Shown one piece after another: positions 22,052 to 63,833 of a stretch of 64,000 nucleotides of DNA. The DNA comes from Liolophura sinensis (taxonomy: Eukaryota; Mollusca; Polyplacophora; Chitonida; Chitonidae): the NCBI RefSeq assembly GCF_032854445.1, contig NC_088295.1, positions 57,393,249-57,457,248 of the forward strand, read 5' to 3'. Every line of letters begins with the position of its first letter. The stretch's first letter is position 1. A program made the translations under genes and the position numbers. The notes under the pieces are model-generated. The model searched no databases, was not told the origin of the DNA, and saw only the letters and a program-made list of their open reading frames with translations.

Positions 22052-25000
22052 CTGAAAATAAAGCAAAAACTAGTATATAGTTTTTAAATCAAACATATTT
22101 TAAATTCATGGAATTTTTTTTTCCACCAATCACTCCAAGTGCAGTACTAAGAATGTCAAACAGAATGGTGAGTAGTTGTTGAAAAATCATGAAATCATTT
22201 GTGGTTCTGTATAAATCACATAAAATTTCACATGATTTTTCAACAAGTTCAAATAATACCAGAGTTATTTATTGAAATATTCAATTAAATTACGGGTGAT
22301 TAAGTTATTAACTATGTCCATGAGTGCACTGACCAAGCAAATCCCACTCTAGCATATTACATTCTGTCCTCTACGACGGATGGTCTGGTAGCAACCTACA
22401 GATGGTTATAGGTTTCCCCTGGGCTCTATCTGATTTTTTCCCAACAGAATGCTGGCCACCATCGTATAAGTGAAATAGTCTAAAGTATGGTGTGAGCACC
22501 AATCAAATAAATAAATCAAATAAATATTACACTCAGTTTATGCTTAAAAATTCCATGAACTGCTTCACAAAAGTCATTCTGCGTCATTAAAGTTCAAAAC
22601 TTTAATCTTACTAAAATATTTGAAGACGAAGTTGATGCTGAAAAAATGCAACCACAACATAAATTTAATCAACTTAATGCATATATTTGGTTCAATTTGG
22701 ATTCCAATTTTTAGGATAAAGATCAAATTTTTTATTGAAATGATCCCTATATCTCTCTTACCTGCATGTCATAATCCATGACAAAGGGAGGGATATCCAG
22801 CTGGTCCGGGTTAATCCGTGTGTACAGGTATTCTATCCCTGGCAGGTTCTTCACTTTATTCTTGATATCAGAAGCAGTAAACGTTGTGAAAAACCATGTG
22901 GACAACTGTGTGGACAAAAAAACATGATCATTTATTCTTACATTTCAGTATATACTTATATGAGTAAATATATAACAACATATCTGTAACAGCATTTTAA
23001 AATGTGCCTAACTGCCATGCAAGAGGACACCATTCAAATACCATATCTTAATTTATTTAAAAATTGAAACTTGAACAAAAATATCCCCACACCTCCCGGC
23101 AAATTCAAATGTGATGATGTTTGGGTCTGAAAGTCTTGGAAACACTTTAATTTTGTGCAATAGTATACTTATGTTACTAGTTTTATATCACTTGGTTACA
23201 AGTTGCTTGAAAACTGATTAGACAGTATTAACCACGTTCAGATGTCCACGATGAGCTGTTAGCGGTGACGTTGTTAGGTTAGTACATGCTTTTATTTCAG
23301 TGACAAGCATGCAGCAGATGAGAAAAATGAAGAAAGCTACAGGTACTTACTCTTGACCAGAATGTGGGATGAACAATGTAAAATGCTTTCAAGTTTTTTC
23401 TATATCTGGAAATGAAAAAGAGAAACAATTAATTAGAGAGAGGAAAAATCTGGTAAAGACAGTGTATGATCAGAACTATTTCACATTCTGCATCATCAAT
23501 GTATGAACTTAATTGTGATCAACTGGAGAGTATATATCTTCATTCAGTGAGCTTACTTGTGATCAACTAGACAATATATATCTTCCATCTGTCAAATTTC
23601 TTGTGATCAACTAGCAAAGTTGATATTTAACTTAACTTATATGTATATATCTTAGAGAGTATATATCTTTCTTCAGAGAACTTACTTGTGACCAACTAGA
23701 GAGCATATATCTCTGATGTGTGAACTTACTTGTGATCAACTAGAGAGTACTGTAATTCTTCAACCTTTTCATATTTTTGTAAGGTGTTTATTCAAGCATA
23801 TCCAGGGGGCATTATTCTGTGTAGACTGATAAAATTAATATTTTTGTAAAGCCCAGAAATTGTCCAATACAGCCAATGTAATTTTGTCTCCAAAATTAAA
23901 TTGAAAACATACGTGAATTGCACTAAAAATTGCTCTTTCATATGCGAAAAGGTTGAGGAAAAAGAGTCTATAGCTTCCTTGATGATCAACTAGAAAGTTC
24001 ATCTTTCACGTCTTAACTTACTTGTAATCAACCAGAGAGTATATATCTTTCATGAAGCCAGACTCAGGCCTGTTCCTAGCTGTGGTCAGGGTGTGGAAGT
24101 ACACAATGACATACTCCTTGTCCACTACAGGGTCCATCACATGGAGAAAATACAACAGGGCCTGCAACAACACAACATCAACTATCATATCAAATCATTC
24201 AATGCCAATGTGTCACCTAGGACAAACCAAAAACAATACAATGTGTCACATGTGGTGAATTTCTCTCAAATCTCATAATCGAAAACTAAAAACAATTCAA
24301 CCTCATGATCAAAAACTTAAAAACAATACTCTTGTAAATATTTACATGTATCGCACATGGGGGCCTCTGTGGCTCAGTTGGTTAGCACGCTAGCGCAGTG
24401 TAATGACCCAGAAGCCTCTCACCAAGGTTGCTGTGGGTTCAAGTCCAGCTCATGCTGGCTTCCTCTCCGGCCATATCTGGGAAGGTCTCTCAGCAACCTG
24501 CGGATGGTCGTGGGTTTCCCCCGGGCTGTGCCCGGTTTCCTCCCACCATAATGCTGGCCAGCGTGGTATAAGTGAAATATTCTTCAGTACAGCGTAAAAC
24601 ACCAATCAAATTTATAAATAAATTTATCGCACATAATGAATTACTCTATGATACCTCATCATAACAAATGTCATTTTTTGTACAGAGTGCTACATATCTG
24701 TAACTGCATGTGTGATGGTGAAAATAAAAATATTCAGTGACACCTTAAAAATACTAAGAAATAACTGCTTAACTACATATATTTCATAATTATAGAAGTG
24801 TGATCGGGCTTTCCAGGTTGGGACTCGAACCAGCGATCTCTGGGTTTACAGTCCATGCTTCTACCACTAGACTAAAGGGAAATTCCCTACAGGACAGACA
24901 GATATCGCTGATAGCACTTCTACATCTATTGTTACACAAGCATGCAAATATCTGCCCGAAAGGTAATTTCTTACTGGAAACTTTCCATGTAAGCTGTTCT

Positions 25001-28000
25001 TTATCTTTAGACAATTTATTGCAAAGCAGAATCTTTTTTTCACACCATTCATCTTAAGATTATCTCTTGACTATAAACTATTTCTCCTCTTACCTTGTCC
25101 AGGTCTATTTCCTCAGAGCAAAAATGTTTTCCAATGAACACGACAACGTGTCTGCCATAACGATCAACTCCTGATAAATACAGGCATCGGAGAGCAGCTA
25201 TCTGGGACAGGTCACATGTCCGCGCTCTTTTCAATAAACGTTCATATCTGCAAACACAAAAATGCAAAATTTGCTGAAAAACTAATCTGGCTGCCATCAC
25301 ATAAGTTAAATATTCTTGAGTACAGTGTAAAACTTCCATCAAAGAAATAAATGAAAACTAATCCATTTTTCCAGGAAGTACTACCGATACACCTGCTAGC
25401 GGTTACTAGAGGAAATGTTTTCTCAGGTCTTTGTTGTGAAACTCTATGACAAAATTATTGCAATTTTCAAAACTTTCCGGCTACTTAGTCTAGGCAGCTA
25501 GCAGCTTTCACATAATTTCCCTGATAATAATTAAATATACACTTGGATTTCATACTGAAGCTAGAGCGGAAACCTTTGTTCCATCTGTCCACATCACCGC
25601 AGACAAAGGGGCAATACTCAGCATTTTTAGCCAAGAATGGCTTAAAAAGCTACACGTACTTCAGTGTCAAAACCGCTCTGTTTTCAAAGCAAGGTTAACT
25701 AATAAGAACTGAGATGGTATGAATTGTTTTCCTACATTTAAAAAAAAAAATAAATAAATAAATGTAGTGTATTAAAACTGGTAGTTAGCTTTGGAAGATA
25801 ATACAGAAACAAATGTTTCTAGTTGGTCCAGTTTGGCCTGGTGTGATATCACACAATAGCCCATGATTAGCACGCTAGCACAGTGTAATGACCCAGGAGC
25901 CTCTCACCAATGCGGCTGCTGTGAGTTCATCTCATGAGTCCAGCTCATGATGGCTTCTTCTCCGGCCCTATTGGGAAGGTCTGGTACCAACCTACGGATG
26001 GTCGTAGGTTTCCCCCGGGCTGTGCCCGGTTTCCTCCCACCATAATGCTGGCCGCTGTCGTATAAGTGAAATATTCTTGAGTACAGCGTAAATCACCAAT
26101 CAAATAAATAAATAAATAAAATAACCCATGATGTCACCCATTGATGATGCACAGCCACACATGAAACTGTAAGGCTCTTGGTGTCATCCAGCATGACTGC
26201 CTTTAATACTTGATGCTATATCTGGAACAATGTCATCCATGGAACAATGTCACCAATGTCACCCATGGAACAATGTCATCCATGTCACCCATGGAACAAT
26301 GTCACCCATGAAACAATGTCACTCATGTCACCCATGGAACAATGTCACCCATGTCACCCATGGAACAATGTCACCAATGTTCACCCATGGAACAATGTCA
26401 CCCATGGAACAATGTCACCCAGGGAACAATGTCACCCAGGGAACAATGTCACCCATGTCACCCATGGAACAATGTCACCCATGTCACCCATCACCCATGG
26501 AACAATGTCACCCAAGGAACAATCTCACCCAAGGAACAATGTCACCCATGTTACCCATGGAACCATGTCACCCAAGGAACAATGTCACCCATGTCACCCA
26601 TGGAACAATGTCACCCATGTCATCCATGGAACAACGTCACCCAAAGAACAATGTCACCCATGTCATCCATGGAACAATGTCCCAAATGGAACAATGTCAC
26701 CCATGTCATCCATGGAAAAATGTCACCCAAGGAACAATGCCACCCAAGGAACAATGTCACTTCAAACCAGGCATATATAGAATTAGTAGAAACAGCCAAT
26801 GACTTTTAGTTTTCTGGGATTCTTCGGTTCTCTGAGTTAAGCAGTGATATTTGGTGTAAACCCTTTTCAACCGTGGTATTAACTCTGTTCCATATAATTT
26901 TGATTTGGAGTTTCCACTTGATTTGGAGTAACATTTTTAATAATACAAGGATCTGGATCACTACCAAAATTTAATGAATTTGTTCTTCAATACCCCAACA
27001 CGTGCACAAAATTTCATAAACATCCGAGCATGACATATTTTTGTACAGTATGATTTGCTGACAAATGAATGCAAAGGCCTGCAAACAAATACCCTCCATG
27101 GACGGAGGTAAGAAACAATTGACACAACCGACCCACAAACCTTCTCTTTTGCTCCAGCAGTTGCTGTTCCCGCACATTCTTGCCGTACAACACAGCAGTT
27201 TTTTTCTCTTTGTCCACATCTGACTCCATCTTGGCAAAAGGATGATGGCCAACATCGAGAGCTGTTGACGTGCCAAATGCCTGGTTCAGGTCTATCGTCT
27301 CCTCAAAGTCATTTTCACGACTCTCTGCGGAAAAAAGAAATGAAAATATATATATATATATGTTTTCTCATGCACTGTTTCCAAGTTCCCAAGCCTTAAA
27401 TGTTGGGAGTAAATGATCGCAGACAGTTTATGTATTAAGTTTACTTTTTTTTAATACTACAAGTACATGGGTGCAAGCAGGCAGAGCCTGGTGGAAACCC
27501 ATGTAGTTTGCAAACCAGAACTCAAGGCGATTGCATTGGTGAGAAGCTTCCTTGTTACTGTGCTGTGCTAGCAGGCTAACCATTAAGCCACAGAGTCTCC
27601 CCCCCCCACCCTCCCGCCCGCCACCCCCTTCAAAAAAAAGTTAGATAAAAAACATGTTCTGCAGTATGTTAGCAGTTAAGCCTGGTACTAACTTTAGTCC
27701 TACAGGTCTTGTATTAGGACTAGACTGGTACTAAGGCTTAAGACTGGCTTAACTTTTAACACACTTTGAACAACCGCTCCCATTCACAATATCAAAGCAC
27801 TAGAGCAGATGACTCACTGTACGCAGCAAAGGTAGGCTTATCCAGAATCCTAATCTGCCTGTCAGGTATGACAGGTTCTCCGTCCTCGTTACCCAGGTCA
27901 GGGGGCAGGTGGCTGACAGCAAACACCTCTTCCTCATGGTTACGGGGGAAGTAGAGCGGCAATACCTGACGATATATCTCCTGTGGGAAGGGAAGACACA

Positions 28001-31000
28001 TGCAAAGCTCATTCAATGCAACTGTTCACAGTGTGAAATAGGAAAGGTTTTCGATTTGCTTCTGAAATTTGTGATTGTTTCATTATTTTGCACGGGTTAT
28101 AATAAATGAATCATATCTCATGTGTAGCCAGAAGTAAACTGGACACTTCCGGACAGGTTAAAATTTTTTTCCAAAATGCCATGCTCGTCTTCTTTGGAAT
28201 TTAGAGCCCTATGACACCATAGTGACCTTGGCTGATGCATCTGGCAGTCAATTACAACCACAACAAACTACTGTAAGAAATAAGAATGCGGGAATACCTT
28301 TTCAAGCATCCTTAATGTCTGTTTGTAGCTCACTCCCGATCTGATGTGAAACAACCTGAGTGTTCTACATAGAAATCCCAGTACCAGATGTAAATAAATC
28401 ATATTTTACAATGCTGACATTGAACACGTTTATGTACATTAACATGTTGACTGCCAGCTACGAAATGGCTGGAAACTGGGAAACTTTTGGCAGTTTTAAC
28501 CTGCCAAAAGTTTCCAAGTTGTGTTATCAGCATTGCCAGCCGATCAGTGGTGCAAAACGTCACCATGTGTTTTAGTACGAGATGTCTCGTACTGGCATAT
28601 AGGATAACACATGCTGGCACGAGATATCTCATGTTAATTTCCAAGAAGCGTTTGATAAAGTTTGATCAAGGCAGCAATTCAATGCAGAAATAACCGGATG
28701 GCATGTCTTCAGAGAACCCGACGCTTCGCTGTAGAGTGAGATATCACATTTCATGTTTGCAGTTTGGCAGCCCGCTATCTGTACTTTCTTTTACTTACAG
28801 GTGATTTGAAATTAAAGACATCACTAGACCAAATGTGTGTATGCAACGCTAAGGTACTCCAAGGGAAGGTGAAAAAAAAAGCACAACTTTTTCATTTTTG
28901 TAATGCTATACAACCAAAATATCGCAGTTCAAAGAAAGCACAAATGTGTACACTGAGACTATCATAGGTGCTGCTACATGTATGTTATCAGTTTTAACTG
29001 ATCTGGCGAAGGTAATTTCTTTCAACAGAAGACAAAACTGTTTCTGTTCACATCACCTTGAACTACTGTGCATGGGGTGTGGATGATGCAACATCATGTT
29101 TCTGGTTGCTCTAACATGGTGCATCCCATTCCAGATTAAAAGTTGATTGACACAGTTACCAAGCCACAGGCCCGGATAGCACAGTTGGTAGAGCATACGC
29201 TCTAGAAGCAGTACATCCAAATCCTGAGTCGAGTCATACCTAAGACTTGAAAACAGGAAGTTGTAACTTCCTCACTTGGCGTTCAGCATGAAGGGGATAG
29301 TGCAACGACTTGTTGACCTGTATCAGTATAATGCCTTCGTTGTCATATGACTGAAAAATTGTCGTCGCACGACGTTAAACCCCAAGCACTCACTCACTCA
29401 CTCAGTTACCAAGCCCATCAGGAAAAAGAGTTTCTGAATAACCTCTTCCTAAATAACATAGGTGATATTATTTCCTATCCTTTTTGTTAAAGTAAAGTTA
29501 AAACAAGATAAAGAGTACAAGCTGCTAACGTGCACAGATGGCAGACTAAGACTAACCTTTGCAGACTCTTCTGTCATCACAAATATAATTGTGTCAAAAC
29601 TGTCTCCATACTTCTCCAGAAACCTTCGCACTGTTCCTAAAACCAAGACGATGCAACCTTAATAAAGAGTCCATCAACATTTCGAGGATTTTGTTGAGAC
29701 TAAAAGCAAAATGCTGGTCTCTCTTATACATATATCTGCCTGATATTCTCCTCATACACCCAAATTCGTATATTACAGTGTAACATTGTTACTTTGGCCA
29801 TGATAAATGTCTTGTGCAGTGCTCATATTCTGACATAAAAGTATACTGGTAAATAATGGATTCCTCCCAAAAATGTTATGAAATTTGAAAGATTTTTGCA
29901 CCTATCTATGAAGTGGCCCTATTTAAAGGGCTACAGTAACTTTTTCTAATTAAACAAAAATACAGGCATGGTTGGCTTATTGTAAGGCACCACACAAAGC
30001 ATAATTTCACAAATCAAGATAATAATGCATATATTTCAAAAGATTTCATTTCAAAAATTTCATTTATTTATTTATTTAATCGTTTAATATGATTACTGAA
30101 GAATTTTTCACTTAATATATATGACGGTGGCCTGTTTTAGGGGTGGAGGAAACCCGACTGCTTGGGGGAAAACCACCACCGGCAGGTTAGTGCTGAACTT
30201 TCCTTTGTGACATGTGATGTACAGATATGCACGTCAAATTAGTGGGAGACAAGTGGTCTTTAACGAGCGTCATGTTGTGCAAATGACCACATGAGTGTCC
30301 ATGATTCAATACTGTCTCCAAGGTCTCATGAACCAGACAAACAGCAAGAGCGGTTTGAAGAATTACAGCATCTTTACTGTATTCCCATACTCACTTGTGT
30401 TTATACAACATAGATTCCCATACTCACTTGTGCCTATACACCATGTATTCCCATACTCACTTGTGCCTAAAAACCATCTATTCCCATACTCACTTGTGCC
30501 TATACACCATGTATTCCCATACTCACTTGTGCCTATAAACCATGTATTTCCATACTCACTTGTGCCTATACACCATGTATTCCCTTATTCACTTGTCCCT
30601 GTACAACATCTATTCTCATACTTTAATACTTGTGCCTATACAACATGTAATCTGATACTCTCTTAACTCTAAACAACATGTATTCCCATAGTCACCTGTG
30701 CCTATACAACATGTATTCTCCTACTTACCTGTGCCTATTCAACATGTATCCCATACTTACTTGTGCCTATGTGTGCTCCATCTTCCAAAGGATACCCCCT
30801 CCGTAATGTGTGTATATTACATAGGGCTAGAGATCGGATACCATTTTCCCTAGGATTCAACAAAAGCAGGTAATGGCATGCTTTAAGAACTTTATGAACA
30901 TAAAATCGCCTTCACTTACTCAATTTCCTTCTTAACATTTAAAAGAAAAAATTTATTTAAAATTGCATATGTGGATTGCAATTATCAGTGTTATTTACAT

Positions 31001-34000
31001 GGGTTATGTATTTAAAAATTATGTTAAATTAAAATAATATTCAATTAAAATAATTAAAATTATGTATGTTTCTTATGAGAATATTACACTTGAACTATAA
31101 TTCAAGTTTGAGAATATTTAAAAACAATTCTTCTTAAATACGACAACTGTTTACAAGATGGCCCTAAAAATTTATTTTTTACAAAACAGGTAAAGATGTG
31201 TTTCAATAGCTTATTATATAATGAGGGCTTGCTCTTCTTACTTTGACAATTGTAGAACATTTCTGTAACAATTATAGAGGGCGCTCTCAGCCGCTGTCAA
31301 GTATTTAACGTTGTAACGCGGGCCTACTGTATGGATTACATATCGCGCTAGCAGCCCGTAACCTTTCGTGATTTTGGCTTCCCCTGTTCTGCAACCTGTA
31401 ACAGCATAATAACCAAGTTGTACGTACTGCTACAAGGCTCATGTTTCTTCAACAGAATTAACCGTTCTTAACCGTTATTGTATATAGCAACACAGGTATG
31501 GAAAAAATGTTTTTCCAGTCGCTTTTTAGATTTACACTTTTACAGTGTTTGACAACTTTAGAATTTAGAATTAAAAAACAGAGCATATTACTCAAATTTT
31601 GTCTAAATAACCAGCATGGGGAAAGTTTAATAATAGATTGCAGTAATAAGGACGATACAAGGTAAAACTACAAACTGAAAACTTAAAAGATAGCAATGAA
31701 TCAATTCCCTTGGTAATGATGTTAAATCATATATGCAATTACGTATTATTTTAATGCCGTATGCGGGAAGGTCTGTCAGCAACCTGCTGATTGCTGTGGG
31801 TTTCCCCCGGACTCTGCCTGCTTTCCACCCACCATAATGCTGGCCGTCATCGTATAAGTGAAAAATTCTTGAGTACAGCGGAAAACACTAATCGAATAAA
31901 TAAATAAATAAATTGTTTTAATGAATTTTGCTGTTAAAAAGTACAGTATATATAAAATGAATGGAGCTATTTACAAAAGTATATTCATTTTTTTTTTATC
32001 AATGTTCTGTACTCAAGAAGTTTTCATTGATAAAATGGCAGTCAGGTATTATGGGTGGGTGAAACTGAAATGGGGTATGTAATCCTCCGTCTTTCACCTG
32101 GAACAGCTTATTGTACCTGACACATGTAAAAGCCCGAGCCAGACAAGCGAGTCAAGCATGTTTACTCATTGGTCAAGTCCCTGACAGATGCAGCAAGCAA
32201 GCATATAACAGTAACTTTTTCCCTTTCATTATTTGAGACCCACAACAAAGTTGATTAGACGAGTCATATAGTCAGAATAGAATATAGGTACAGAATGAAC
32301 ATGCCCTAGGTCATGACATCACAAAAAATATCTCAACAAAACTTCTTCCTCTCCCTTTAACAAGTGTTACATAGTGAAAACGAAAATGGAAGAGAGATGG
32401 AAGAAATGGTATCCTGTTTCAGTGAGACATTCAATTAAAGTTTACGGGGGCCTCTGTGGCTCACTTGGTTAGCGCGCTGGTGCAGCGTAATGACCCAGGA
32501 GTCTCTCACTAATTCGGTTGCTGAGAGTTCAAGTCCAGCTCATGCTGGCTTCCTCTCTGGCCATACGTGGGAAGGTCTTCCAGCAACCTGCAGATGGTCT
32601 TGAGTTTCACCCCCAGCATAATGCTGGCCACCGTTATATAAGTGAAATATTCTTGAGTACGGCATAAAACACCAATCAAATAAAATAAATAAACAGATAA
32701 TACGAAATACCAAAAGCTTATACCAGTACGTCTCCATGATATGGCTGAGATATTGCCGATGTAGCGTTAAGCCATAATCATTCATTCATTCATTCATTCA
32801 TAAGATTACATGCATGAGCATGGAAATATTATATTAGATTAAAACCTAGCTACCCTAATTCCTCAACCTCTTCGCATATAAAAGAGCAACTTTCAATGTA
32901 ATTTATGCACAATTTAAATTTGATTTTGGACACAAAATCTGTTGATTGGATCTGCCAATTTCAGGGCTTCTCAAAGACTATGATTTTATCAGTCTACACA
33001 GAATAATGTCCTCAGAATATACTTAAATAAACACTTTGCAAATATGCGAGAAGGTTGAAGAATTTCAGTGGCTGTATATTTTCCATCATGAGTATAAATT
33101 TGAAAATTAATTTCATACACATATAATCTTTTAAATTATGGTTTCTGAATTTATGGCAAAAGAAGGAAATACAGCGATTCAAATTTCTTGAAGCTAGAGC
33201 TTATCGAAGTATTAGATATCATGTTCACTGCTGATCAATTTACTATTGACTGAATGGCTAAAGTTAACTTCCCTTGTTACCTTTAAGGTTTGTGTTCACT
33301 TCCTGGGTCAGTTGTTTGCCAGCTTTTCTGAATATCCGATCAGACAGAGAATTTTTGTCATTGAGAGCTTCATTTGAAGAGTTCACCAAAGCATGGACAT
33401 TCAGTAATGTGGGATCCCCTTCCCTGTTTGGTTAAAAACAAGAAACTAACATAACGCAATGCATTCTCTATCTTCTGTCAACACAATAAACGTATTAACA
33501 CACCTTTACCGAGATTCATATAGAAGCCCATATGAGCTTTAATATGTGTGAAGGTTTTGGGGGCAACCTGCGCATGGTTGTGGGTTTCCTGCGGGCTTTG
33601 CCGGGTTTCCTCCTACCATAATACTGGCTGCCGTTGTATGAGTGAAATATTCTTCTGTACGACATAAATCGCCAATCAAATAAAATCAATAAAATAACAA
33701 TAACAATAGTACAAGAACTGTGCTTTCCCTCAAATCTGCATTATTTTCAAGTAGTTAAGTGACATCAATTTCCTGTTATGGTTTATGGGCAGGTGGAGAG
33801 TTTTAATATCCATATATGGAATAAAAGTAAAACGCAAAATGTATACCTATTTTAAAATATTTTAATAAAATGTTACTTTTGGTGCTGAAACTTACATTTC
33901 TCCAAGAGGACATCAACCTACTTTACAAACGAACCTCAAAATACCTTTCTAAAGTGAATAAAACTCTGGGATCAGGCAAACTAAGTAATTTAGTCATAGT

Positions 34001-36830: not shown

Positions 36831-36856
36831 GGAAAATATGAAAACAACTCACCGTG

Positions 36857-36935
36857 AATTATTTTTTTATTTATTTGATTGGTGTTTTACGCCGTACTCA
36901 GGAATATTTCACTTATGCGGTGGTTATTCTCAAGT
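36857..36935 (-). repeat. SINE (main family), inverted tail
   Basis: TTATTTGATTGGTGTTTTAC, GCCGTACTCAGGAATATTTC. Confidence 0.85.
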
Positions 36936-40837: not shown

Positions 40838-40843
40838 TTTATT
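40838..40843 (-). terminator. Candidate WDTC1 poly(A) signal
   Basis: AATAAA on the minus strand, about 90 bases after the WDTC1 stop codon. It would give a very short 3' untranslated region; later signals are possible. Confidence 0.45.
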
Positions 40844-40931
40844 TCCCTGTCATAACTAAACGAAACCATCCATGGATTTATACAGGCTGGACTGGATAAT
40901 AATAAGCACTGTTGTTGTTGCAGTAGGCGTT

Positions 40932-44100: not shown

Positions 44101-47100
44101 CAAGAATTTGATTGATTTACTGTATATATCAGGCCCATATTACATGCTGTAATTTTTCAAGCTTTTCACATGTTTTCAATGCGCTTATTCAAGCATACTC
44201 TAAGGGCATTAGTCAGTGCATACAGACGTATAAAATTATATTCTAAAATTAAGCCCTGAAATTGGCCAAAACAACCAACATAGTTTCCACAAATGTGTAT
44301 TACTTCCCCCCACTCTTTCATATGCACAAAAAGGTTGATTAATTAAGGTACTGACCATCTTCTCTTCATGAAAGCTGCGGCTCTGTTACCATACAGTACA
44401 GGTGAGTCAGACGCCATGGCCACAGCCTGGTTATACAGGATAATGGCTCGGTGGTACTGCTCATTCTCAAAGCAACTGTTCGCTGCCTTCTTTATCTTCT
44501 CCACAGCGCTGGACAGAGGCCTCGGGTCAGGTCGGTGTCTGGTAACATACACAATAGATAACAGATTGATTGACAGAGTGATGGAGTGGACCAGTCGTAA
44601 ACACTTTCAGTTTCAATGACATTGGTACTTTTAACTAATTAACTACTCATTTGACCATATTTTTTATGCCATTATATTTATAGTTCACTTGTAACTGTCA
44701 GGCACCCACCTCTTAACATCCCTGTAACTATCAGACACCCGCTGCTTAACACCCCTGTAAATGTCAAGCACCCACCTCTTAACATCCCTGTAACTATCAG
44801 GCACCCGCTGCTTAACACCCCTGTAAATGTCAGGCACCCACCTCTTAACATCCCTGTAACTATCAGACACCCACTGCTTAACACCCCTGTAAATGTCAGG
44901 CACCCACCTCTTAACATCCCTGTAACTGTCAGGCACCCACCTCTTAACACCCCTGTTGGTGACCAACTGCTTAACACCCCTGTAGATGTCAGACACCCAC
45001 CTCTTAAAACCCCTGTAACTGTCGGTCACCAACTGGTTAACACCCTTGTAAATGTCCGGCACCTGCCTCTTAACACTCCTGTAACTTTCAAAGACACCCA
45101 CCTTTTAACACTCCTGTTTGAAGCCTCTGTGTCCATCCTGGCAGACAGGGCAGAAGATGAGGGGAGAACTCCGTGTTTGGTCACACCATTTGTTACCCCA
45201 TTGGCTGTTGTTCCATTCCTGTGTAGGCTATAGCCATTTGTGGAGGCACAAGCTTCTGTATGATAAATGATATGGCAGGAGATGGTGAAAAACACGCATA
45301 TTGTAAATATACCTAATTACAAGGGAAGAAATCTTTCTACATATGTCTGCTATTCAATTTTCTTCATAACTGCCGATTAGATCAACCTCCTGCTTCCCTG
45401 ATGTGTTGCTGAAGATTCCAAAAAGTGAAAGTGTTGAGTATTGAAAAAAAAAGTATGCAAAATAGGCCATACTGACTTCACACATCTTTTTTAGCCAGAT
45501 GAGCTAATAGTTCAATCACACTTCATCCCTTACTACCTGTAATTTCTAGTTTCAACAAAAATTTAAAAGTTTGCATTTAATGAAGGCAAGATATTGATGA
45601 AAATGTTAAAGTATGACATCTCAGTGGCTTTAAACATTTCATCCGTCATTTTAAAACTTTTCATTCATGTCTCAAGTCAGTATAACACTTTTAAAAGTTT
45701 CTTTCAGTAAGCAAAATGTCACATACATGTACTTCAGCTGGAATTCTACAAACCTTTGACCAGTCCATTTGCTGCTAGGCACAGTGACTTGTCAAATTTC
45801 TGAGGTCTCTCAGGTTTGTTGACATCAAACATGTAGATCTGCTCCCCACCCAGATTGACTAATAGCTCTGATCCATCAGGTCCAAACGTGAGAAAGGTGG
45901 AGGCTAGGGTGCGGTACTTTTTCCTGTACTCTTGTTGCTTCTGGGGAAGGTGACCTGCAAATTTGTTCACTACTTATATACATGTATCTATTGTTTAGAG
46001 ACATGTTTTCCAATGCAGAATTGCAAAGGAACAGATATTTAATATAGCAAAAATTAGCAACCAGTACCCGTGTATTGTGAGATAACTCAGCATTTCTGTA
46101 AATAAAATGGTGGCCATCTCGAATTGCGAAAGTGACTTATTCCTTTAAGTTTATGGTTTAAGGAAACTACACTGCCTAGAGAAAAGCACTAGACATTTAG
46201 AGGTTACTGACAAACTTTCCCTTGTTTGATTTATAGATATATACACCTTACTGGTGAAAGACAAGTGGCCTTCAACAAAGGATGGATGGTACAAATAGCC
46301 ACATGCTCGTCATCGACCGGTCCACTTATCGTTTGCTCCATGGTCACCTTAATGGTGAGAGTTGGAGGAATCAACGAAGCTTTATATCAAAAAAAAAGTG
46401 CTGCCCAAGTTTCTTCACCTGTGGAAGTTTATCCTGAACAATGTTGTCGTGGAACATTTTCGTACAACATGGTAATAAACTGTAAACAACCAAATCAAAT
46501 TTTACAAAACCTCAATCAGGTATTCCTCTCTACACTTAAGCAATCTCTCCAAGTCTAAAATATAAAAAATGGCCAAACTGACTAATGACAGTTTTAACTT
46601 AAAACACAAAAATAGGATATTTGATCCACAAAACATTCTGACAAGCCTGAAAATAGCTGACCAATATTTTGGAAAACACCCCTAGGGAGAAAGACCAAAA
46701 AGTCCATGTTATATAATACTATATAGAAAAAGAGTCTTCAAAGAAGCCAGGCACCTATTTTCAGGTTTGCTTTCTGATAGCGACAATAGAATGGTAGCAT
46801 CTTCTCACCAGCAATCAGGTACTTGGCACAGCCCTGGGGTAATGCGTAATCTTCTGCAGACATGAAGTTTGCCAGCAAATTCTGTCTCTCCCATGGTGAT
46901 CTGAAAAGGACACATGTTCTGTCAATTTGCACAGTAGGCCTGAGTCTGAGCAGATAGAAAGCTATGTGTACATGTATGTAGATTAAGAGCCTTGCCATGA
47001 TATCAGTATGCTACAGAACCGTATTCAACTTAGACACACATCTTTCTTTGTCACAATACTTCAGATCTTTGCAATAGGTAAAAGCAGTTGCTAATAATTT

Positions 47101-51425: not shown

Positions 51426-51459
<34 letters not shown>

Positions 51460-53282: not shown

Positions 53283-54996
53283 GCCTGGGTTTTGTCACTT
53301 CTTCACCTTTGACTTAGCTGGGTTGCAAGAAAATAAAAATCAGCAGTTCCCCCAATATGAGACGAAATCACCGATCGACATACTAACTCTTTTTTTCTTT
53401 TTGCCGGCTCTATGACCAAAATTCTATGCCATTTACGGTAATTAACTGAAGCCACCACTTGCTGATCTTGTGGGCATGTTTCTGCGCCGAACTTCCGAAA
53501 ACGGGGATTTTGACGTTTGTTGTCGCCGACTTCATCACCCAAAGAAATGACTGTTAATGAACGCCTCAAAGCGAGTTTTTTTCATTTAAACTCTTTCATT
53601 GACACTGACACATAAAAACCATGCCTTTATCAATAACTGGAAAACAGGTGATTTTTCGTCAGAAGCACGCTCACGAAGAGAACAAAGTTGACAGATTTGT
53701 TGATGTTTCTGCAACACGTGAGTTCTTGAGACAACTTCTATACCGGATCTGACATCGATTACTATAATAGTGATACAATGCGCATGTCCATACCCACTCA
53801 TTCTCTCAAACATGTGCCAGCGCCACAGGTCATGCGATGATTCGGATAATATCCACGGTACACTGGACTGGGAAAAAGACGTCTTTATTATTAAAACAAT
53901 TCAGACTGAGGCATTCTGAAAACGAAATAACCAGAAAAACGATGCATTCTCACTGAAAAACGACTTTACTGAACACCGACATGGACTTGGATGGTTTCAA
54001 AAATGATCAGCTTTGTTCTAATTTTGGTTTATATTTGAATTTATGTTGCCCACATGTATGAACTGTTTTCAGCTTGAGTCACGTTTTGGTTTGTTAATGC
54101 TTCATTACCTAATTATAACAATTATATATTATATATTTATATTATTATTATAATTATATATTATAAAAATTTCATTTTATTTTTTGTTTATGCTTTGATT
54201 TTTATTATCATATTTTTGTTTATTATATACAATATTTCTCAGTTTACAAAGTTCACAAAGCTACATAATATTAACAAACAGAATTAATAAAATAAGCCCT
54301 ATGCATTTCTTTCACATATTTCTTGAAGATTGTGCATATTTTTTTATAAATGTATTGCCAAATGACGTCAGATCCGGTGTACAAATACTCTCGCGATGTC
54401 CTCTTTTGCTCTGTTCCTTGAGAGGCCGGAAACAGTGTCGTAAAAGATAGGTTTTGAAAAGAATTAACCTAGAGAAAGAACGACAATGAGCTCCACTTTG
54501 TGCCACCGTCTTCCCCTCATAGATAGGTGTCATATATGCATATACCAATGCTGAGATATAATATGAAATTGCATTCCAAGTTTAGGTAAAAATTATAATA
54601 ATGAAATAAAAAGATTTTAACTTCTGCTTTATTGGAATTAGTTTTTCATTTATGCAGAATCTCATATCCTTGCGAAAGATTATTCCTGAAAGGAATTTAA
54701 AGATAAGCATATGACTCAAAATATGTTGTATTTAATAAGTGTAAATTTAATTTAAAATAATAAAATTACCTGTATTTAGCTTTTGGCGGGTATACGACGA
54801 AAAGGGAAAATAAATAGCAAACAATAATTTTTCCAGTCGTATACTAGGTCCTATCACTGAATCAGCCATTTGACCATGAATTCTGCTCTCCATAATTCGG
54901 TAGTTTTCTGCATTATTTTGACATTCTGTTGTTCATATGCTGCACAGACGAAACATGCCGCATTGTAAGGAAATATCGCATTACTTTACGGTAAAG
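53283..54996. promoter_or_regulatory. Divergent WDTC1/PAAF1 promoter region
   Basis: The two genes' start codons face away from each other 1.7 kb apart with no other gene between. GC-richer sequence at about 53,300-53,850 is the likelier WDTC1 promoter; an AT-rich block at 54,110-54,310 separates it from the PAAF1 side. No clear TATA box or transcription start can be read from sequence. Confidence 0.45.
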
Positions 54997-55058
54997 ATGT
55001 CAGCCCCCAGTGATTCTGACAGATTAATTTTGCAAAGCGACTGGGACGAGGCACTAAG
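54997..55058 (+). CDS. PAAF1: PAAF1 exon 1
   Basis: Residues 1-20: MSAPSDSDRLILQSDWDEAL, with the next Arg codon split. Human PAAF1 has IQSDWAQALR. Donor GTTCGA, a weak one. Confidence 0.88.
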
Positions 55059-58000
55059 GTTCGAAACCAATATTTTGAATGGAAATGTTCCAAATTAAGA
55101 AGTTATATTTTAAATCAACTATCTACAACTTGTCACTCAGTGTCACTGTCAGTAATTGTCCTGTGTAATGTTGCTGTGTCACCGCTTGAAAACTGAAAAC
55201 TACAAATTACAATTACAAATTAAAGCTGTTACGTTCCTTACAGCGATACTGGTGGTCAAGCATCAGCGCCCAATTGAATGTCAAATAAGAAAACAGTATG
55301 AAAGTAATGCGCTGAACGAATTTGCCATGATCGGAAAAATTAAGCTTTGGAAAACATTTGTTTACCGGTACCAACAGATGCTAACTCACATAACGACGAA
55401 TAGCTTTATTAAACTGGCGAAGTACATAGGCAGTGGAGATTCAACACATTCAACCTGCCTGTACAAATTGTAACAGTATTTACAAAAACAGGCAGCATGG
55501 AGGAAAAGCATGACAAAAATGAAAAATAATCAACTGCATGGGTTTGAACACCACACCACCAGATATATTCATTGCATCTAATGCTGACAACCATCACAGC
55601 ATCTTGATTGAGTTAGGCCTTGGCGATCACTGGACCTGGTTAAGTATGTACATTTCAGGTTACTTGACACATGGTGTGCAATCATCCCACTGTAGTGTCT
55701 CATCTGGTATGCCTGGGCTCAGTTCAGTTTTGAGAGCGGGAGAGGACAGTGTGCATGTTGGTGACAGAAAATGTTAGGAGACTACAAAGATATGAAATTT
55801 TGGTCTAAATAGTTTGGAGGAATTGTGTGTTGTTTTCTTTAAAAAAAGATCCTCAGTCCAAAGCCATGGCGTACGGTTTTGTAGTTACTTTTCTGTGGGG
55901 CATCCCAAATCCCATCTCTTCCTTACGGGCATGTAAGGTCTAGACCGGAACAGAAACTGGAATCTGTTATATTTCTTAGATGTTTGAATTTGACCAAATG
56001 TAGTAACATGTTGAACATGTTTTGGGCTCATCATGACTCAAAGTACATGTGTGGATAGACATTTTTCGTATATTTCGGCATGGCTTTGGACTTATATTAC
56101 TGATAGCATGGAGGTACCGGTATGTGGGAATTCTGTCAGGATTGTTGAGAATTACCTATAATGCATTGAGAACAGGGCTGGCTTTATGTGCAAACATTGA
56201 AAATTGTCCATTGATAACTGTGGAGAGGCGAGAGAGTTGTGCATTTCTCGGTTTGAGTGACAGGCTGCCGACCTATGGGGTAGGTTACCTGTAGCACGTG
56301 TATAGTAATACACAGTTACCGCCAAAGTCTATATATGTTAAATACACAGGCTTACATTTCTATGTCTGAAGTAAGGTGGTGTCATTTAAATATTTCTAGC
56401 AAGAAAACTATAGATCGTAGCTCAAATCCATTGGCATGCACCAGAAACTAGATGTCTTGGGCTACAAGTTGGTGCAAGTCTCAGATCTGTAGATTTCGTA
56501 GTTCTTGAATTGCACGTCATTGAAATTACGTGACTGAAAAATGTTTTTGACCATATCTCAAAAAGATACAAAGATAGACAAAATCCAAAAGCGGATTCAG
56601 AATCAATGTACGCTGCCAAATGCACCAGGGTATATGAAAACATTTTCAAACTTGGACACTTTTTATGACATCATAAGTTTGACCAATGTCAAGCTTCCAA
56701 AGTTTTCAATGCATGTCCAAGAGTTTTCAATCTTAGTCTAACTGGGATTACCGTACAAGTATATCAAATTCTTGATAAGATTTTTTAAGGTTTTGAACAA
56801 AATCCAAGATGGCCACCAAGTCACATGACCAAAGTTAACCCAGAACAGCCAAAATTTGCCTTGTAACCTTGTTCCTAAAATCACGAAATTTCAACTGCAT
56901 CCAATAAAAACTTTTCTTGTTACAGCTCGTACATCTTTCAAAAAGAAGGAAGAAAAATAATATAAATCCAAACGATTTCCGTAGGTGTAGAACTAAAACC
57001 GAGCCATCATGTAGTATGCGGGTATGGCAGTTTTAAGCAGATGAAGTACTGAGGCTGTAGAACTTAAATAAATTATCTATTCAAGCAGGAATCAAATTAA
57101 TATTAATACAGAGCAGCAGCAATGGAACATCCCCCATGTGTCATTCTGCTTTATATGCACGTAAAACTTCAGGTCAATGCATCCTGTATTCTTTGAAATA
57201 TCAACCCTAACATTTTATGTACCATTAATTTTAGTACACAATACACTAAGTCAGGAATTTGGTAATTAACGATCCCTGAAATGACAACTATGCCTCTAAG
57301 ACAGCATGACCTAAGGAGAACCATTTCCTGTATGGTGGGAAAGTATGAGGTCCCTCATACAGGAAAACACTGGTCAGCTGAAGAGTCTCACAGTTCTCCA
57401 TAGCCTTTCCCAGAAACTCTTTTAACAAATCTAAGGGGACAAAAAGGAATTAAGATCAACAAATCAAGAACAGAATTAAAATCACTTAAGTGACATAGTG
57501 CGACTGCATGATGTGATTTATCAGACTTTTAGTTTGGACTATAGATGTTGCCCAATTTTTTTTTACTATCATGTTAATGGAGCTTCTTATTATTTTCCCG
57601 AAGAGTGTTCAGTATATCATACTTACCAATAATAATTATCTGCCAGAGTTCATATATAAAACCATAATCCAATCTAATTATAATACCGTTTTTACTTTCA
57701 GAGAACATGATGGAAAGGCTTGGGTTACATTTGCATCCCCAGGTACATGGGCCTATGTCTTATCTGAAGTATTTAGTGTAGAAAGAATTTTAATGTTTAG
57801 ATATGTTTAGATGTTTAGATTTAGGCGGGTGTAATTGCTAGGAATGAGTAACACACTCCTGTGTGTTGTCTTAATTCAACATGACATTGCAGTGAGGGAA
57901 CACTATAAATATGTCAGTATTACTGCAAGGAGACTCGTGATGTGACCGAAACAATGTTGAAAGTGAAGTTAAACCCCTATCAAACAGACGAGTTTTCATT

Positions 58001-61000
58001 ATGACTCATCTTTATATTTCATCTTTTATTTGCCGGTGTCATTGTTTTATTAATTATCTAAACATCGCTGAGATATTACTGATGTGGTGTTTTCCATAAT
58101 CATTCATTTATTATCTAAACGTTTTTGTATTCCGTTCTTAAACCTTTTAGATTTCTTGCCATACACATATAATCTGTTGTCTCTCAGTTACTTTAATCAA
58201 GATGTCACAAAATAAAAGACTCATTTTAATGAAGTATTCTTTCTTTCTTTCTTGCGATATTTTTTGGCATTGCACTTATGTATATGATGAACTGATCTCT
58301 CAGACAGATGGATTGAAAGTGTGACAATCAGCCAATAATCCATTTTTCTCATCACCAGGGAAACCGAACACATATGAGGATCTGCGCACAGAGGCGGTGT
58401 CCTCTGGGGGAATCCCCTACGTTAATGGAACTGACAGTCTGCATGTGAAACATGTGACCAGGGTGAGTTTCTTATGTGTCATGTTTGGAGTTTTGTTTCT
58501 GATATCTAACAGTGCTTAACGCCAAAATAAAACCACAGCTAAACTAGACACAAGATATAGGCTTTGATAATGAAGTTAACTCCAGGAATCTTAACATTGA
58601 TTACTGACAACTAATAATTAAATCACAAATAATTAAATCATGAAATAATTGTCACGAAGAACCTTTTTCAGACTAGAAGATTGATGCTGGTAATTCATGT
58701 TTTTTTATCTTCTTTTATTACATGTTCCCGCAGCTTCTTTTTAATTTGGCGTTTATTGTTTTCAGAGAACCATAACATTGTCATACAGGTGGGATAACAA
58801 TGTGATAACTCGCAAATTTATGGCCCCCCAAGTCAGATATTCCACAGTGCACAAGAAAAAGGTAAAGAGTAACAAAGGAAACTTCTCTAACTGTCCAAAA
58901 TGTCCTGATATATGCTGGAGAAAATGTTGCCAAAAAATTGCTGCAAACATATTTTAGATTCAGAGAAGAATTACAAAGATGTATTTTTATTTTGGAGGGC
59001 GTAGCAAGAGTAGTGGTCAATATATTCATATGTGGACAGTGTACAGTATTTTCTGATGTTTACTGAAGTGTACTGGTTTAAAACTGTATTATATTCATAT
59101 TTTGTCACTGTATACCAGCTCCAGTTGTCTCATTGTTTAAAATTGTATAGACCCATTGTATACGTCAACCGTGAACGTGAACTGTGTTCACCATGAAACT
59201 TGTACATACTGGTTTGTTCAGTTTGGTTTTGTATGTAACTTGAATATAAATAGGGATTCTTTTTGTTTAACACCTTACTCTGTTGAAGGCGATGGGTTGT
59301 CGCCGCAATGTCAGGAAATAATATACAGGGTGTCCCAGAAGTCGCGCACCATCCAGGTTAAGGTTGAATGCTTGACCTACAGAGTGGTGTGTTGCCCCAT
59401 CTCTTCCAAACATAAAAACCAATTCAACTCTTTCTTGTACTGTTAGTTTATTAGCCATAATTAACTCCGAAAGAGAGAAAAAAAAATCAAAATCAGTATT
59501 AAATCTGAAACAGAGAAAAAAAGTGAACATCAGCATGGTGCACGGCTTCTGGGACACCCTGTACATTGTCCAGTAGAACAGTGTTATAGTCTTATCTTTC
59601 ATAGTCTTATTTTTCATAGTATACAAACTTGGATGTCTGAAAATCTACATTCCTATACTCAAAAACTAGTGTTTTTTGACATTTAGCAGTTCAGGGAAAA
59701 CACAGTTCGTCAGGTTTACTGTACTGGAAATGTTTGTGAAATTCAGGTGAACAGTTTGGATGTGACGGATGGAGGACTGGCTGTATCTTCTGACATGGAA
59801 GGTCACCTGAAAGTCTGGGAGACTAGCTCAGGGGACATCCGCGTAGGTGTTCTTAAACCCAGTTCAAAGGTCAAGATTAGTAATTGTAATCTTTCACCTA
59901 CAAAAACATTCCCTGCTATCCACTCCCTACAAGGTTTAATCTGCAAAATGGATCCAACGTAGGAAGAAGTTCATATGTCCTGATCATCATCAAATAAAAT
60001 GTTTATATCTTGATGTACTTATAACTTTATCATGTAAGTAAGGTAAAATATATATAAGTCCAGATTAGTTAACAATTTTACCTGACATTAACGTGATGCA
60101 GTTTAAATATTTAATACCAGTGTGTCATTAAGCCATATTAATTATTCATTCATTCATTCATTTCTGCTCTACTGCCTTTTGTAGTGGCTTTATAATTTCT
60201 TGGATTATATGAGATATCCCAGATAATTTCTAATTTTCTTGTATCTCCGCTGAGTAATCCGGATCTTTTAATTCATTTCTAGTTGCCTTGTCACGCTGCT
60301 GGTTTTGTAGCACATTTATGGTTTCTAATGTGTTTTTTTTAATTTCTTCACTTACAACTGGTTGGTAATTACCCCTGTTGGTTTTCTGTGTATTGCTGGT
60401 GTCCCCAGGGCAGCAGGGAAAAATGACATATGTGACAGAATAAAGCACACATATGTAATACATTTTTATTATCAACGGGTGCCTCTGTGGCTCATTTGGT
60501 TAGCGCACTAGCGCATTGTAATGACCCAGAAGTCTCTCACCAATGCGGTCGCTGTGAGTTCAAGTCCAGGTCATGCTGGCTTCCTCTCCGGCCGTACATG
60601 TGAAGGTCTGCCAGCAGCCTGCGAATGGTTGTGGGTTTCCCCTGGGCTCTGCCCGATTTCCACCCACCGTAATGCTGGCTGCCGTGGTATAAATGAAATA
60701 TTCTTGAGTACGGCGTAAACACCAATCAAATAAATAAATTTAATATCAACATGTCTGTCACTTCAGATGTTGTTGACTGGTCACATAGGATATGTTTACA
60801 CCTGTCCTTCATGAGTATGCTTGTCTGTCTGTTCAGAGGTTGCTGATTGGTCACATATGAGATGTGTACACCTGTCCTTAATGCGTATGCTTGTCTGTCT
60901 GTTCAGAGGTTGCTGATTGGTCACATATGAGATGTGTACACCTGTCCTTAATGAGTATGCATGTCTGTCTGTTCAGAGGTTGCTGATTGGTCACGTATGA

Positions 61001-63833
61001 GATGTGTACACCTGTCCTTTATGAGTACACATGTCTGTTCAGTCACGTAGGAGATGTGTACACTTGTCCTTAATGAGTATGCTTGTCTGTCTGTTCAGAG
61101 GTTGCTGATTGGTCACGTATGAGCTGTGTACACCTGTCCTTAATGAGTATGCTTGTCTGTCTGTTCAGAGGTTGCTGATTGGTCACGTATGAGATGTGTA
61201 CACCTGTCCTTTATGAGTATGCTTGTCTGTCTGTTCAGAGACTGCTGATTGGTCACGAATGAGATGTGTACACCTGTCAGTAATAAGTATGCATGTCTGT
61301 CTGTTCAGAGGCTGCTGATTGGTCACGTATGAGATGTGTACACCTGACCTTAATGAGTATGCTTGTCTGTCTGTTCAGAGGTTGCTGATTGGTCACGTAT
61401 GAGCTGTGTACACCTGTCCTTTATGAGTATGCTTGTCTGTCTGTTCAGAGGTTGCTGATTGGTCACGTATGAGCTGTGTACACCTGTCCTTAATGAGTAT
61501 GCTTGTCTGTCTGTTCAGAGGCTGCTGATTGGTCACGTATGAGATGTGTACACCTGTCCTTTATGAGTATGCATGTCTGTCTGTTCAGAGGCTGCTGATT
61601 GGTCACGTATGAGATGTCTACACCTGTCATTTAGTATGCATATCTGTTCAGAGGTTGCTGATTGGTCCTGCAGGGTATGTTTAAACTTGTCTTTAACAAG
61701 TATGCATGTCTTTTCTGTTCAGAGGTTGTTGACTGGTCACATAGGAGATGTGTACACCTGTCGTTTCTTCCCCTCTGGGGTAGTGATTCTGAGCGGAGGG
61801 GCTGACATGCAGCTTAAGATCTGGTCAGCAGAGACTGGGCAATGTGCTGCCACCCTTAGGGGGCACAAAGGGGGTGAGTCCGGCAACACAGTTATCTCCC
61901 TTTATTACTTGCACGTGGTGAGAGATATGGAAATAAACAGTTAGCTAGACAGCTGTTTCTGGTGGACAAGGCCAAGATTTCTTACCTTCAGGACTGATAA
62001 ATCCATGTGGCTATATTAAAGCATTGTAACAATTGGCAGGAACACACAGTTAAGCAAATTTTGTGCATGTTATGTAAGTCTTCGTGACATCTGAAAGTTT
62101 CTGTTGGTTCGGGATTTCAAGTCAAAAACCTCAAAATGCACATAAAATAATTAGGCCTGAGCTGAATCGTGGAGTGTTGCCCAAGTCTGTAATTTTTTAG
62201 CCTATGCATTAATGGCCATTTATTCTGTTTTTTTCTTATCCTACTTATGATGCATTTTGACGCTCTACTCGAAACAGCCACCCGTTAACTCCACTACAGT
62301 TGTTCATCCTCTTTCATCTGAATTACAGATAGTATTGCATGATTAAGTTTAAGTTTTTCATCTGACAGATAGTATTGCATGATTTATGAGTACCGCTGTT
62401 CTTCTATTTTGACAAATTGAATAACGTGGCATATGATTTGAGTATGAACAATCTATTAAAATCAACAACTTATAAACTTGTGACTAGCCTTTCACAATTG
62501 AGTGACTCGTTTTTGGCAATATTGGAATTACTATCATGGTTTATTGAAACTCATTTTACTTACTTACTCTAATTTATATTGGAGGTCTGCCAGCAACCTG
62601 TGGATGGTTGTGGTTTTCCCCCGCGCTCTGACCGGTTTCCTCCCACCATAATTCTGATTACGATTGTACAAGTGCAATTTTCTTGAGTACTATGTAAAAC
62701 ACCAATAATAATAAATGAATTATACAAATTTATCTTGGAAACATAGGTATTCAAGACACAGCCATTGTTGACCGAGGTCGCAATATTGTATCTTGTTCCC
62801 GAGATGGGACCGCTAAGTTATGGGACTGTGGACAGTCCACATGTTTGGTTACATTTGCTGAGTGTGGAGGAATACTGAATGCTTGTGCCCTGGGAGCCAC
62901 TGCCAGTGGGATCAACCTGGGGACCTCACCGTCAACCATCAGTGGGTTTCTCTGTTATTATTAGTACCTATTATTTCTGTAAAAGCTCAAACATCAGGAT
63001 TTCTATATTTCACACTGTGTATGCCTACTATATCACTTTTTGTTATTATAGGTCTGTTTTTACATGGTGAGGAAAACTGCCAATTTATTCAACCCTTTGG
63101 TTCACACCATTAAAACAGAACTGTTGATATACAAATAATAAATAGATCATTGCATTGTAAAGTTTGAATAGGGCCCTTCTGTGGATCAGTTGGTTAGCGC
63201 GCTAGCACAGCATGATGACCCAGGAGTCTCTCACCAATGTGGTCAGTGTGAGTTTAAGTCCAGCTCATGCTGGCTTCCTCTCCGGCGGTACGTGAGAAGG
63301 TCTTCAGCAACCTGTGGATGGTCGTGGGTATCCCGCGGGATCTGCCCGGTTTCCACCCCCGTCGTTGTATAAGTGAAATATTCTTGAGTACGGTGTAAAA
63401 CACCAATGAAGTAAATAAATAAATAAATAAAGTTTGAATACCATTAAAATTTTCCTGGTGGAAGTTAGCTTAACATCTAGTGTCCCATGGGTACCACCTC
63501 TCTTCTTTGAACAGTGTCTATGATGTGCAAACTTGACTGTACATATTCAGTGTCCTCTACATAACATGTATGTGAAAACAGCTGATTCAGCAAATGGAAA
63601 AATGAATATTTTGAAAGTTAACAATTTCCACTTCAGCTGGTTTACATGTTTTCATTTATGAGTCTGAATCATTGTGAAGAAGTTGAACATGTTAAACACA
63701 GCTGTTAATAGCTTTTCATTTGTATGATGTATGTATTTCAGGTGACCGTGAAGTTTTGACAGGTGGAAAGATGTTGTTGCTGGCTTGTGAGAACAAAACA
63801 CTTCAGGCCTATGGACTACAGAGCAGAGAAAAG
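54997..63833 (+). CDS. PAAF1: PAAF1 (proteasomal ATPase-associated factor 1), 5' part, 8 exons
   Basis: Orthologue of PAAF1 (Rpn14 in yeast), a WD40 protein that binds proteasomal ATPase subunits and restrains 26S assembly. Coding exons: 54997-55058, 57702-57742, 58359-58462, 58766-58861, 59747-59842, 61723-61873, 62747-62941, 63742-63833. They join in frame to 279 codons and end in phase 0 at a GTTAGC donor; the human protein is about 392 residues, so roughly the last quarter lies beyond the window. Diagnostic segments: LQSDWDEALR, PGKPNTYEDLR (human PPGKPSLYGSL), RFFPSGVVILSGGADMQLKI (human RFFPSGLVVLSGGMDAQLKI), QDTAIVDRGRNIVSCSRDGT and KMLLLACENKTLQAYGLQSR. WD repeats start at about residue 100. 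The start codon follows the weak context GTAAAG. Intron 5 carries a long array of copies of the exon 6 acceptor. Confidence 0.96.
55059..57701 (+). other. PAAF1 intron 1
   Basis: 2.6 kb without a recognised repeat or exon. Open frames of up to 105 codons (55,156-55,473) have no recognisable domain. Confidence 0.5.
57702..57742 (+). CDS. PAAF1: PAAF1 exon 2
   Basis: A 41-bp exon encoding REHDGKAWVTFASPG with split codons at both ends (human RKDEGEAWLSCHPPG). Acceptor TTTCAG, donor GTACATGG. Confidence 0.9.
58066..58114 (+). repeat. (CATT)n-tailed repeat end, diverged
   Basis: CATCGCTGAGATATTACTGA, TGTGGTGTTTTCCATAATCA then TTCATTTATT, related to the fragment at 32,719. Confidence 0.5.
58359..58462 (+). 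CDS. PAAF1: PAAF1 exon 3
   Basis: Residues 35-69: GKPNTYEDLRTEAVSSGGIP, VNGTDSLHVKHVTR. Acceptor CACCAG, donor GTGAGTTT. Confidence 0.94.
58766..58861 (+). CDS. PAAF1: PAAF1 exon 4
   Basis: Residues 70-101: RTITLSYRWDNNVITRKFMA, QVRYSTVHKKK. Acceptor TTTTCAG, donor GTAAAGAG. Aligned by position to the human FLAPYTTFSRIHTK segment. Confidence 0.9.
59324..59563 (-). mobile_element. IS630/Tc1/mariner-type short element with transposase start
   Basis: Terminal inverted repeats TACAGGGTGTCCCAGAAG and CTTCTGGGACACCCTGTA enclose about 240 bp. On the minus strand an ATG at 59,458 opens MANKLTVQERVELVFMFGRD, then a Gly-Ala-Thr-His-His-Ser-Val run, which resembles the N-terminal helix-turn-helix of mariner-superfamily transposases. 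After about 38 codons the frame runs into the terminal repeat, so the catalytic domain is gone. In PAAF1 intron 4. Confidence 0.85.
59747..59842 (+). CDS. PAAF1: PAAF1 exon 5
   Basis: Residues 102-133: VNSLDVTDGGLAVSSDMEGH, LKVWETSSGDIR (human CLDISSRGGLGVSSSTDGTMKIW in pieces). First WD repeat. Acceptor ATTCAG, donor GTAGGTGT. Confidence 0.96.
60477..60740 (+). repeat. SINE (main family), full length
   Basis: A-box GTGGCTCATTTGGTTAGCGC, B-box GAGTTCAAGTCCAGG, tail GAGTACGGCGTAAACACC. Sense orientation in PAAF1 intron 5, abutting the acceptor array. Confidence 0.94.
60767..61765 (+). repeat. Splice-acceptor array of PAAF1 exon 6 (70-bp unit, ~14 copies)
   Basis: Copies of a 70-bp unit run into the real exon 6. 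Each has a pyrimidine stretch and acceptor (GTCTGTCTGTTCAG), about 38 exonic bases (AGGTTGCTGATTGGTCACGT, then ATGAGATGTGTACACCTGTC) and a spacer (CTTAATGAGTATGCTT). The real junction differs as AGGTTGTTGACTGGTCACAT. Most copies carry TGA in the exon frame where the real exon has GGA. A shortened copy (about 61,025-61,080) and a diverged one (61,645-61,700) are present. Confidence 0.95.
61723..61873 (+). CDS. PAAF1: PAAF1 exon 6
   Basis: Residues 134-183: RLLTGHIGDVYTCRFFPSGV, VILSGGADMQLKIWSAETGQ, CAATLRGHKG. Second WD repeat. The acceptor chosen is the last TTCAG before the conserved frame that stays open. Donor GTGAGTCC. Confidence 0.96.
61874..62577 (+). other. PAAF1 intron 6, left part
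   Basis: AT-rich intron with a small local duplication: TCATCTGAATTACAGATAGT and TCATCTGACAGATAGTATTG near 62,318-62,385. No exon seen. Confidence 0.5.
62578..62726 (+). repeat. SINE (main family), 3' part
   Basis: GTCTGCCAGCAACCTGTGG, CCTCCCACCATAATTCTG, TGTAAAACACCAATAATAAT; ends 20 bases before the PAAF1 exon 7 acceptor. Confidence 0.85.
62747..62941 (+). CDS. PAAF1: PAAF1 exon 7
   Basis: Residues 184-248: IQDTAIVDRGRNIVSCSRDG, TAKLWDCGQSTCLVTFAECG, ASGINLGTSPSTI. Third WD repeat. Acceptor ACATAG, donor GTGGGTTT. Confidence 0.96.
63172..63432 (+). repeat. SINE (main family), full length
   Basis: A-box region GTGGATCAGTTGGTTAGCGC, AGTTTAAGTCCAGCTCATGC, GAGTACGGTGTAAAACACCA, (AAAT)n tail; a short deletion removes the CACCATAATGCTGG block. 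In PAAF1 intron 7. Confidence 0.92.
63742..63833 (+). CDS. PAAF1: PAAF1 exon 8
   Basis: Residues 249-279: DREVLTGGKMLLLACENKTL, QAYGLQSREK (human EAKMLLLAREDKKLQCLGLQSR in pieces). Acceptor TTTCAG, donor GTTAGCAT. The gene continues to the right of the window. Confidence 0.95.

Follow-up and report, generated by a model that had tools for sequence, protein, structure and literature searches.

Four tandem arrays in three genes of the chiton Liolophura sinensis, a marine mollusc, end at the exon in a unit that is a real splice junction, a donor in three cases and an acceptor in one. We consider it highly probable that these arrays, in GDAP2, WDTC1 and PAAF1, are 'mirages', that is, minisatellites of exon edges that arose by tandem duplication, expanded into the intron and were tolerated as the exon-proximal copy is the one spliced. 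All four lie in a single stretch of 64,000 nucleotides (chromosome C1, 57,393,249-57,457,248), referred to here as the window.

To determine exon edges, the window was searched by tblastn with the WDTC1 and PAAF1 proteins and with GDAP2 relatives, and the boundaries were then fixed by matching phases and GT-AG sites; this gave 30 exons and 27 introns for the three genes, every intron being GT-AG. The WDTC1 translation was 94% identical to a Liolophura sinensis protein with the whole query aligned, and the PAAF1 translation 99% identical over 79% of the query. The database proteins P0121 (WDTC1) and P0241 (PAAF1) of this species cross the array junctions exactly, and both GDAP2 array junctions (24022 and 30761) were placed by homology to other animals. 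Each of the four array junctions (24022, 30761, 45102 and 61723) was the top-ranked pair; at four array-free GDAP2 junctions the second-ranked pair was taken, having better splice sites. The arrays, a comparison array and the exons concerned are as follows (window positions).

Array 1, 23504..24057, minus strand: units of about 44 bp with the end of GDAP2 exon 9 and its donor; TRF and unit splitting.
Array 2, 30378..30775, minus strand: 33-bp units with the end of GDAP2 exon 4 and its donor; functional donor after 30761.
Array 3, 44690..45121, minus strand: 33-bp units with the end of WDTC1 exon 9 and its donor; functional donor after 45102.
Array 4, 60750..61765, plus strand: 70-bp units with the start of PAAF1 exon 3 (43 bases) and its acceptor; functional acceptor before 61723.
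Comparison array, 26223..26760, minus strand: interior of GDAP2 intron 7, touching no exon edge; TRF.
GDAP2 exon 9 (of 11 exons found), 24022..24161, minus strand: tblastn, phase and GT-AG matching.
GDAP2 exon 4, 30761..30849, minus strand: tblastn, phase and GT-AG matching.
WDTC1 exon 9, 45102..45255, minus strand: tblastn, phase and GT-AG matching; junction crossed by P0121.
PAAF1 exon 3, 61723..61873, plus strand: tblastn, phase and GT-AG matching; junction crossed by P0241.

The original prediction had described units that each hold an exon edge plus its splice site, with the last unit of each array as the functional junction, and both TRF (spans 23504-23749, 30378-30770, 44690-45117 and 60750-61762) and exon mapping bore this out, as they did the count of three donors (24022, 30761, 45102) and one acceptor (before 61723) in three genes. 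In sense orientation the exon edge and splice site are repeated about 7, 12, 13 and 15 times in arrays 1 to 4, the units of array 3 alternating partly as 66-bp dimers. The exon bases inside the arrays number 36, 15, 20 and 43 with the originally predicted ends, and 0, 10, 16 and 40 with the TRF ends, the zero for array 1 arising because TRF misses its exon-side units. In that array the functional copy stands at the high-coordinate end, with the donor after 24022; two units at the exon are followed by just over 200 bp of non-repeat sequence and then by five units, and TRF reports only this distal part (23504-23749), the exon-side units having been found by unit splitting. The idea that the arrays are continuous with the junctions held in that all four end in one, but array 1 is broken. 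Compared with the rest of its intron, the array 1 junction scored 24, while array-free junctions scored at most 12; among the remaining 50 junctions of the window no low-copy or decayed array was detected, no score exceeding 12.

No sequence is common to any two of the four arrays, in agreement with the prediction that their units are unrelated. The arrays derive from the exon, since the exonic part of the unit encodes conserved protein. When the assembly was searched with 153 bases from the edge of the PAAF1 exon, very common words being skipped, 11 matches were obtained at E <= 0.001, all 11 at the PAAF1 locus, as expected for birth in place. In array 4 the two end units have, by eye, some exon-like bases in common; identity of the functional unit was 0.797 to the distal unit and 0.831 to all spares. 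By eye, a SINE-like repeat tail stands directly before this array, at 60500-60740. Across the four arrays, the mean divergence of spare units from the functional unit is 13-31%, a level that stutter in assembly would not give, and arrays of this kind are present on both C1 and C8, at loci distinct from one another; both observations argue against an assembly artefact, which we regard as extremely improbable.

Elsewhere in the window, the intervals 1-22.6 kb and 53.4-58.7 kb were scanned for genes on whose exons further arrays might be placed; among the 103 of 203 open frames of at least 48 codons that were scanned no credible gene emerged, Pfam giving two matches, both weak (E 0.0044 and 0.0063), and Rfam gave no match at gathering scores. 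Minisatellites outside any recognised exon were present at 822-2572, 10346-11119, 20350-21056 and 21798-21927.

As the comparison array at 26223..26760 is the sole large array of the three genes lying wholly inside an intron, four of the five large genic arrays reach an exon edge by at least 8 bp. Under a null in which arrays were placed randomly in the three genes, running at most one unit into an exon, this was obtained in 0.055% of 20,000 trials (P=5.5e-4, using the originally predicted span for array 1 and two GDAP2 edges that lie 1-2 bp from their final positions). An exon overlap of this length is thus commoner than chance in a window that had been picked for the feature. With TRF spans alone, three of the five overlapped an edge (P=0.0095, same trials), and all 13 genic arrays of period 10 or more gave P=0.0039 (0.385%). 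When coverage was counted instead, 4 of 54 junction windows of these genes lay in arrays, as did 192 of 2160 one-sided intron-interior comparisons at a threshold of 18 and 181 of 2160 at a threshold of 20. We regard the test at the level of arrays as fairer, because a junction can be covered only by an array seeded on it.

Since the window had been chosen for the feature, a second, independent set of genes was drawn from this genome. A search for PF00118 gave 50 listed matches, from which four multi-exon chaperonin (CCT) genes were picked by match rank; their 27 exons were bounded by reading frame and splice scores, the sites being hand-chosen and a few edges (among them one CCT5 acceptor) not phase-checked. 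Three of seven CCT arrays lay at exon edges (P=0.02; 2.1% of random placements), and 3 of 54 CCT edges scored at least 18 (5.6%), as compared with 4 of 54 in the window (7.4%). Edge arrays thus recur in this genome, in a small sample in which two of the three cases belong to one gene, CCT3. The CCT5 donor array holds 97 exon bases, and the two CCT3 donor arrays 25 and 44. A CCT3 acceptor closes a further array whose units end in a near-identical acceptor with almost no exon overlap, its junction score of 17 being just below the threshold of 18. When CCT5 and CCT3 (exon 6541-6727) were joined at the proximal donor, the products aligned without gaps to the best-matching solved CCT chain; for CCT3 exon 5118-5297 the next exon was sought and not found. 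One CCT3 exon (L036 sense, between 1-249 and 358-1528) is flanked by arrays on both sides: one runs up to its acceptor, and the other begins 13 bp beyond its donor.

Outside the window, coding score was also used to look for exons; of the 251 candidates, 98 were scanned in bulk and 20 singly; nine of those scanned singly were accepted as exons, and one match below the Pfam cut-off was dropped. Arrays were absent from these nine Pfam-verified exons (best score 15) and from three further PAAF1 exons (best score 10). Open-frame length in the family search was discarded as a sign of arrays, since only one of the six frames examined reproduced its listed length.

Minisatellites are abundant in this genome. 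In 20 stretches of 10 kb sampled within the initial 31 Mb of C1, 35 arrays took up 33,146 of 200,000 bases (about 17%), so that minisatellite birth is very active and raw material plentiful. One entire stretch (C1:2100001-2110000, array at 3-9999) is a single 56-bp array of about 178 copies. Splice-motif excess among these minisatellites was tried as a proxy for exon-edge origin and rejected: the 35 sampled units were not enriched in splice motifs relative to neighbouring sequence (mean P 0.56 for donors and 0.60 for acceptors), with P <0.1 in 3 of 35 for donors and 1 of 35 for acceptors. In another stretch (L013, 5603-9995), a 49-bp unit resembles, on visual inspection, a very small exon preceded by an acceptor and followed by a donor; its donor score was high (P 0.045) and its acceptor score was not (P 0.725).

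In both sets together, 108 edges were scored alike and 7 of them carried arrays: six were donors and one was an acceptor. The nulls expect about 0.5 edge arrays in the window and 0.7 in the CCT genes, and four and three were observed, so that the combined probability of a sum of 7 or more is 5.5e-5. This speaks, as does the P of 0.02 for the CCT set alone, against uniform seeding, under which the window and CCT3 would be chance concentrations in a genome rich in minisatellites. We consider such clustering unlikely, although the minisatellite share of the sampled bases, the selection of the window for the feature, the two of three CCT cases within one gene and the 12 other exons without arrays all point towards it. 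A better though still tentative possibility, short of an even chance, is that exon edges, and 5' splice sites in particular, act as genuine mutational hotspots of minisatellite birth, for example through transcription-linked breaks, R-loops or slippage at exon ends. It is favoured by the array-level excess in both sets and by the distribution of arrays over 6 of 54 donors and 1 of 54 acceptors (Fisher P=0.11). Against it stand the sampled units without splice-motif enrichment, a base composition of the arrays that is ordinary as a group (GC 0.32-0.49), the weaker result with TRF spans alone, an array coverage no commoner at junction windows than at intron-interior windows, and the small numbers. 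The originally proposed amplification seeded at exon-intron boundaries is accordingly supported in part: the process is repeated and independent, and was met again in the CCT genes.

The mirage reading would account for the arrays by a simple route. A stretch of about 30-110 bp that spans an exon-intron boundary would be duplicated in tandem, and the array would then expand into the intron via slippage or unequal exchange, the exon-proximal copy remaining the spliced one. Because that copy would stay spliced, mRNA and protein would be unchanged and the array tolerated. Duplication might thus occur anywhere and survive where splicing hides the array, a tolerance that, mainly at donors, would explain why arrays persist, with a possible added mutational bias at exon ends.

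The alternative that arrays are kept by selection for spare splice sites, also raised in the original prediction, found no support in what the spares would do, since their use would give a stop or a frameshift in six of the seven arrays. In array 4, a stop would be reached within 7-21 codons from each of the 14 spare TTCAG acceptors; translation continued past the donors of arrays 1, 2 and 3 would end after 1, 8 and 25 codons, respectively, and the first spare of array 3, 35 bp further on, shifts the frame. In CCT5 and the first CCT3 array, read-through reaches a stop after 22 codons and 1 codon, respectively. In the second CCT3 array (L036 sense 6684-7538, C8) the reading frame continues for 144 codons beyond the donor, because its first units are 66 bp long, a multiple of three, and stop-free; spare use would there add 22 residues per 66-bp unit and not truncate. 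The functional site had the highest score in arrays 3 and 4 and was tied in array 1, and one spare donor of array 2 outscored the functional donor (11.0 versus 9.1). Several spares do retain strong sites, a point in favour of selection. The AG/GT core bases were kept in 8/12, 21/22, 21/24 and 26/26 cases in the spares of arrays 1 to 4, leaving out one rearranged spare of array 4. Splice dinucleotides were thus kept at 76 of 84 positions, compared with 1471 of 1810 elsewhere in the units, an excess that weakly favours some use of spares, though the copies share descent. We judge selection for spares very unlikely; on balance the data fit spare copies being decoys, ignored probably by position, and not backups.

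Mirages are reportedly named in a paper by Canestro (2002). They have been described in amphioxus Adh3, the globins BflGb6 and BflGb9, and TnC, and PGBD5 repeats have been likened to them; Adh3 units measure 10-72 bp and globin units 150-160 bp (PMC3087553 and PMC3902484). The original statement that there is no named class for such arrays therefore does not stand. Amphioxus mirages and the chiton arrays are alike in that tandem units span an exon-intron boundary on the donor or acceptor side, that the authentic copy is the exon-side one (in the chiton by protein continuity or homology), that AG/GT is kept in many, not all, copies (PMC3087553), and in the unit size range and the presence of both boundary types (PMC3087553). 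They differ in the host, a mollusc and not a cephalochordate, in the frequency being measured here over edges, and in unit number, up to 15 in the chiton as compared with 3-6 in BflGb6.

Related systems differ in outcome. In intron gain by tandem duplication (PMC4974935) the duplication likewise crosses a boundary and copies splice signals, but a new intron arose, while the chiton proteins crossing the junctions have no extra intron. In human duplicated genes (PMC2812944), internal tandem repeats or minisatellites also lie at exon edges and affect introns, but these are recent segmental duplicates in which 66% of intron changes also have repeat-retaining transcripts. The dual-specific AGGT sites of polyubiquitin UBC (PMC10809524) similarly place splice signals in repeat units, but those repeats are coding and variably spliced, whereas the chiton arrays are intronic. 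Among the matches listed in the open-licence literature, judged by title and start of abstract, there was no molluscan or chiton mirage, and a molluscan candidate, PMC3862624, was not a mirage case in the part available. In the literature so covered, mirages are reported only from amphioxus.

Exon edges, chiefly 5' splice sites, may be a birthplace of minisatellites throughout the genome, a preference of splicing for the exon-proximal donor letting arrays accumulate there and not at acceptors; we give this nearly, though not quite, an even chance. If true, mirages would be present at roughly every ninth donor (6 of the 54 tested), and so at thousands of junctions. The 7 of 108 mollusc edges, found partly in genes not picked for arrays, suggest that mirages are a recurring outcome in minisatellite-rich genomes. 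They may trip gene predictors and read mappers, are a possible intermediate of intron gain, and offer natural tests of how the spliceosome chooses among many near-identical splice sites.
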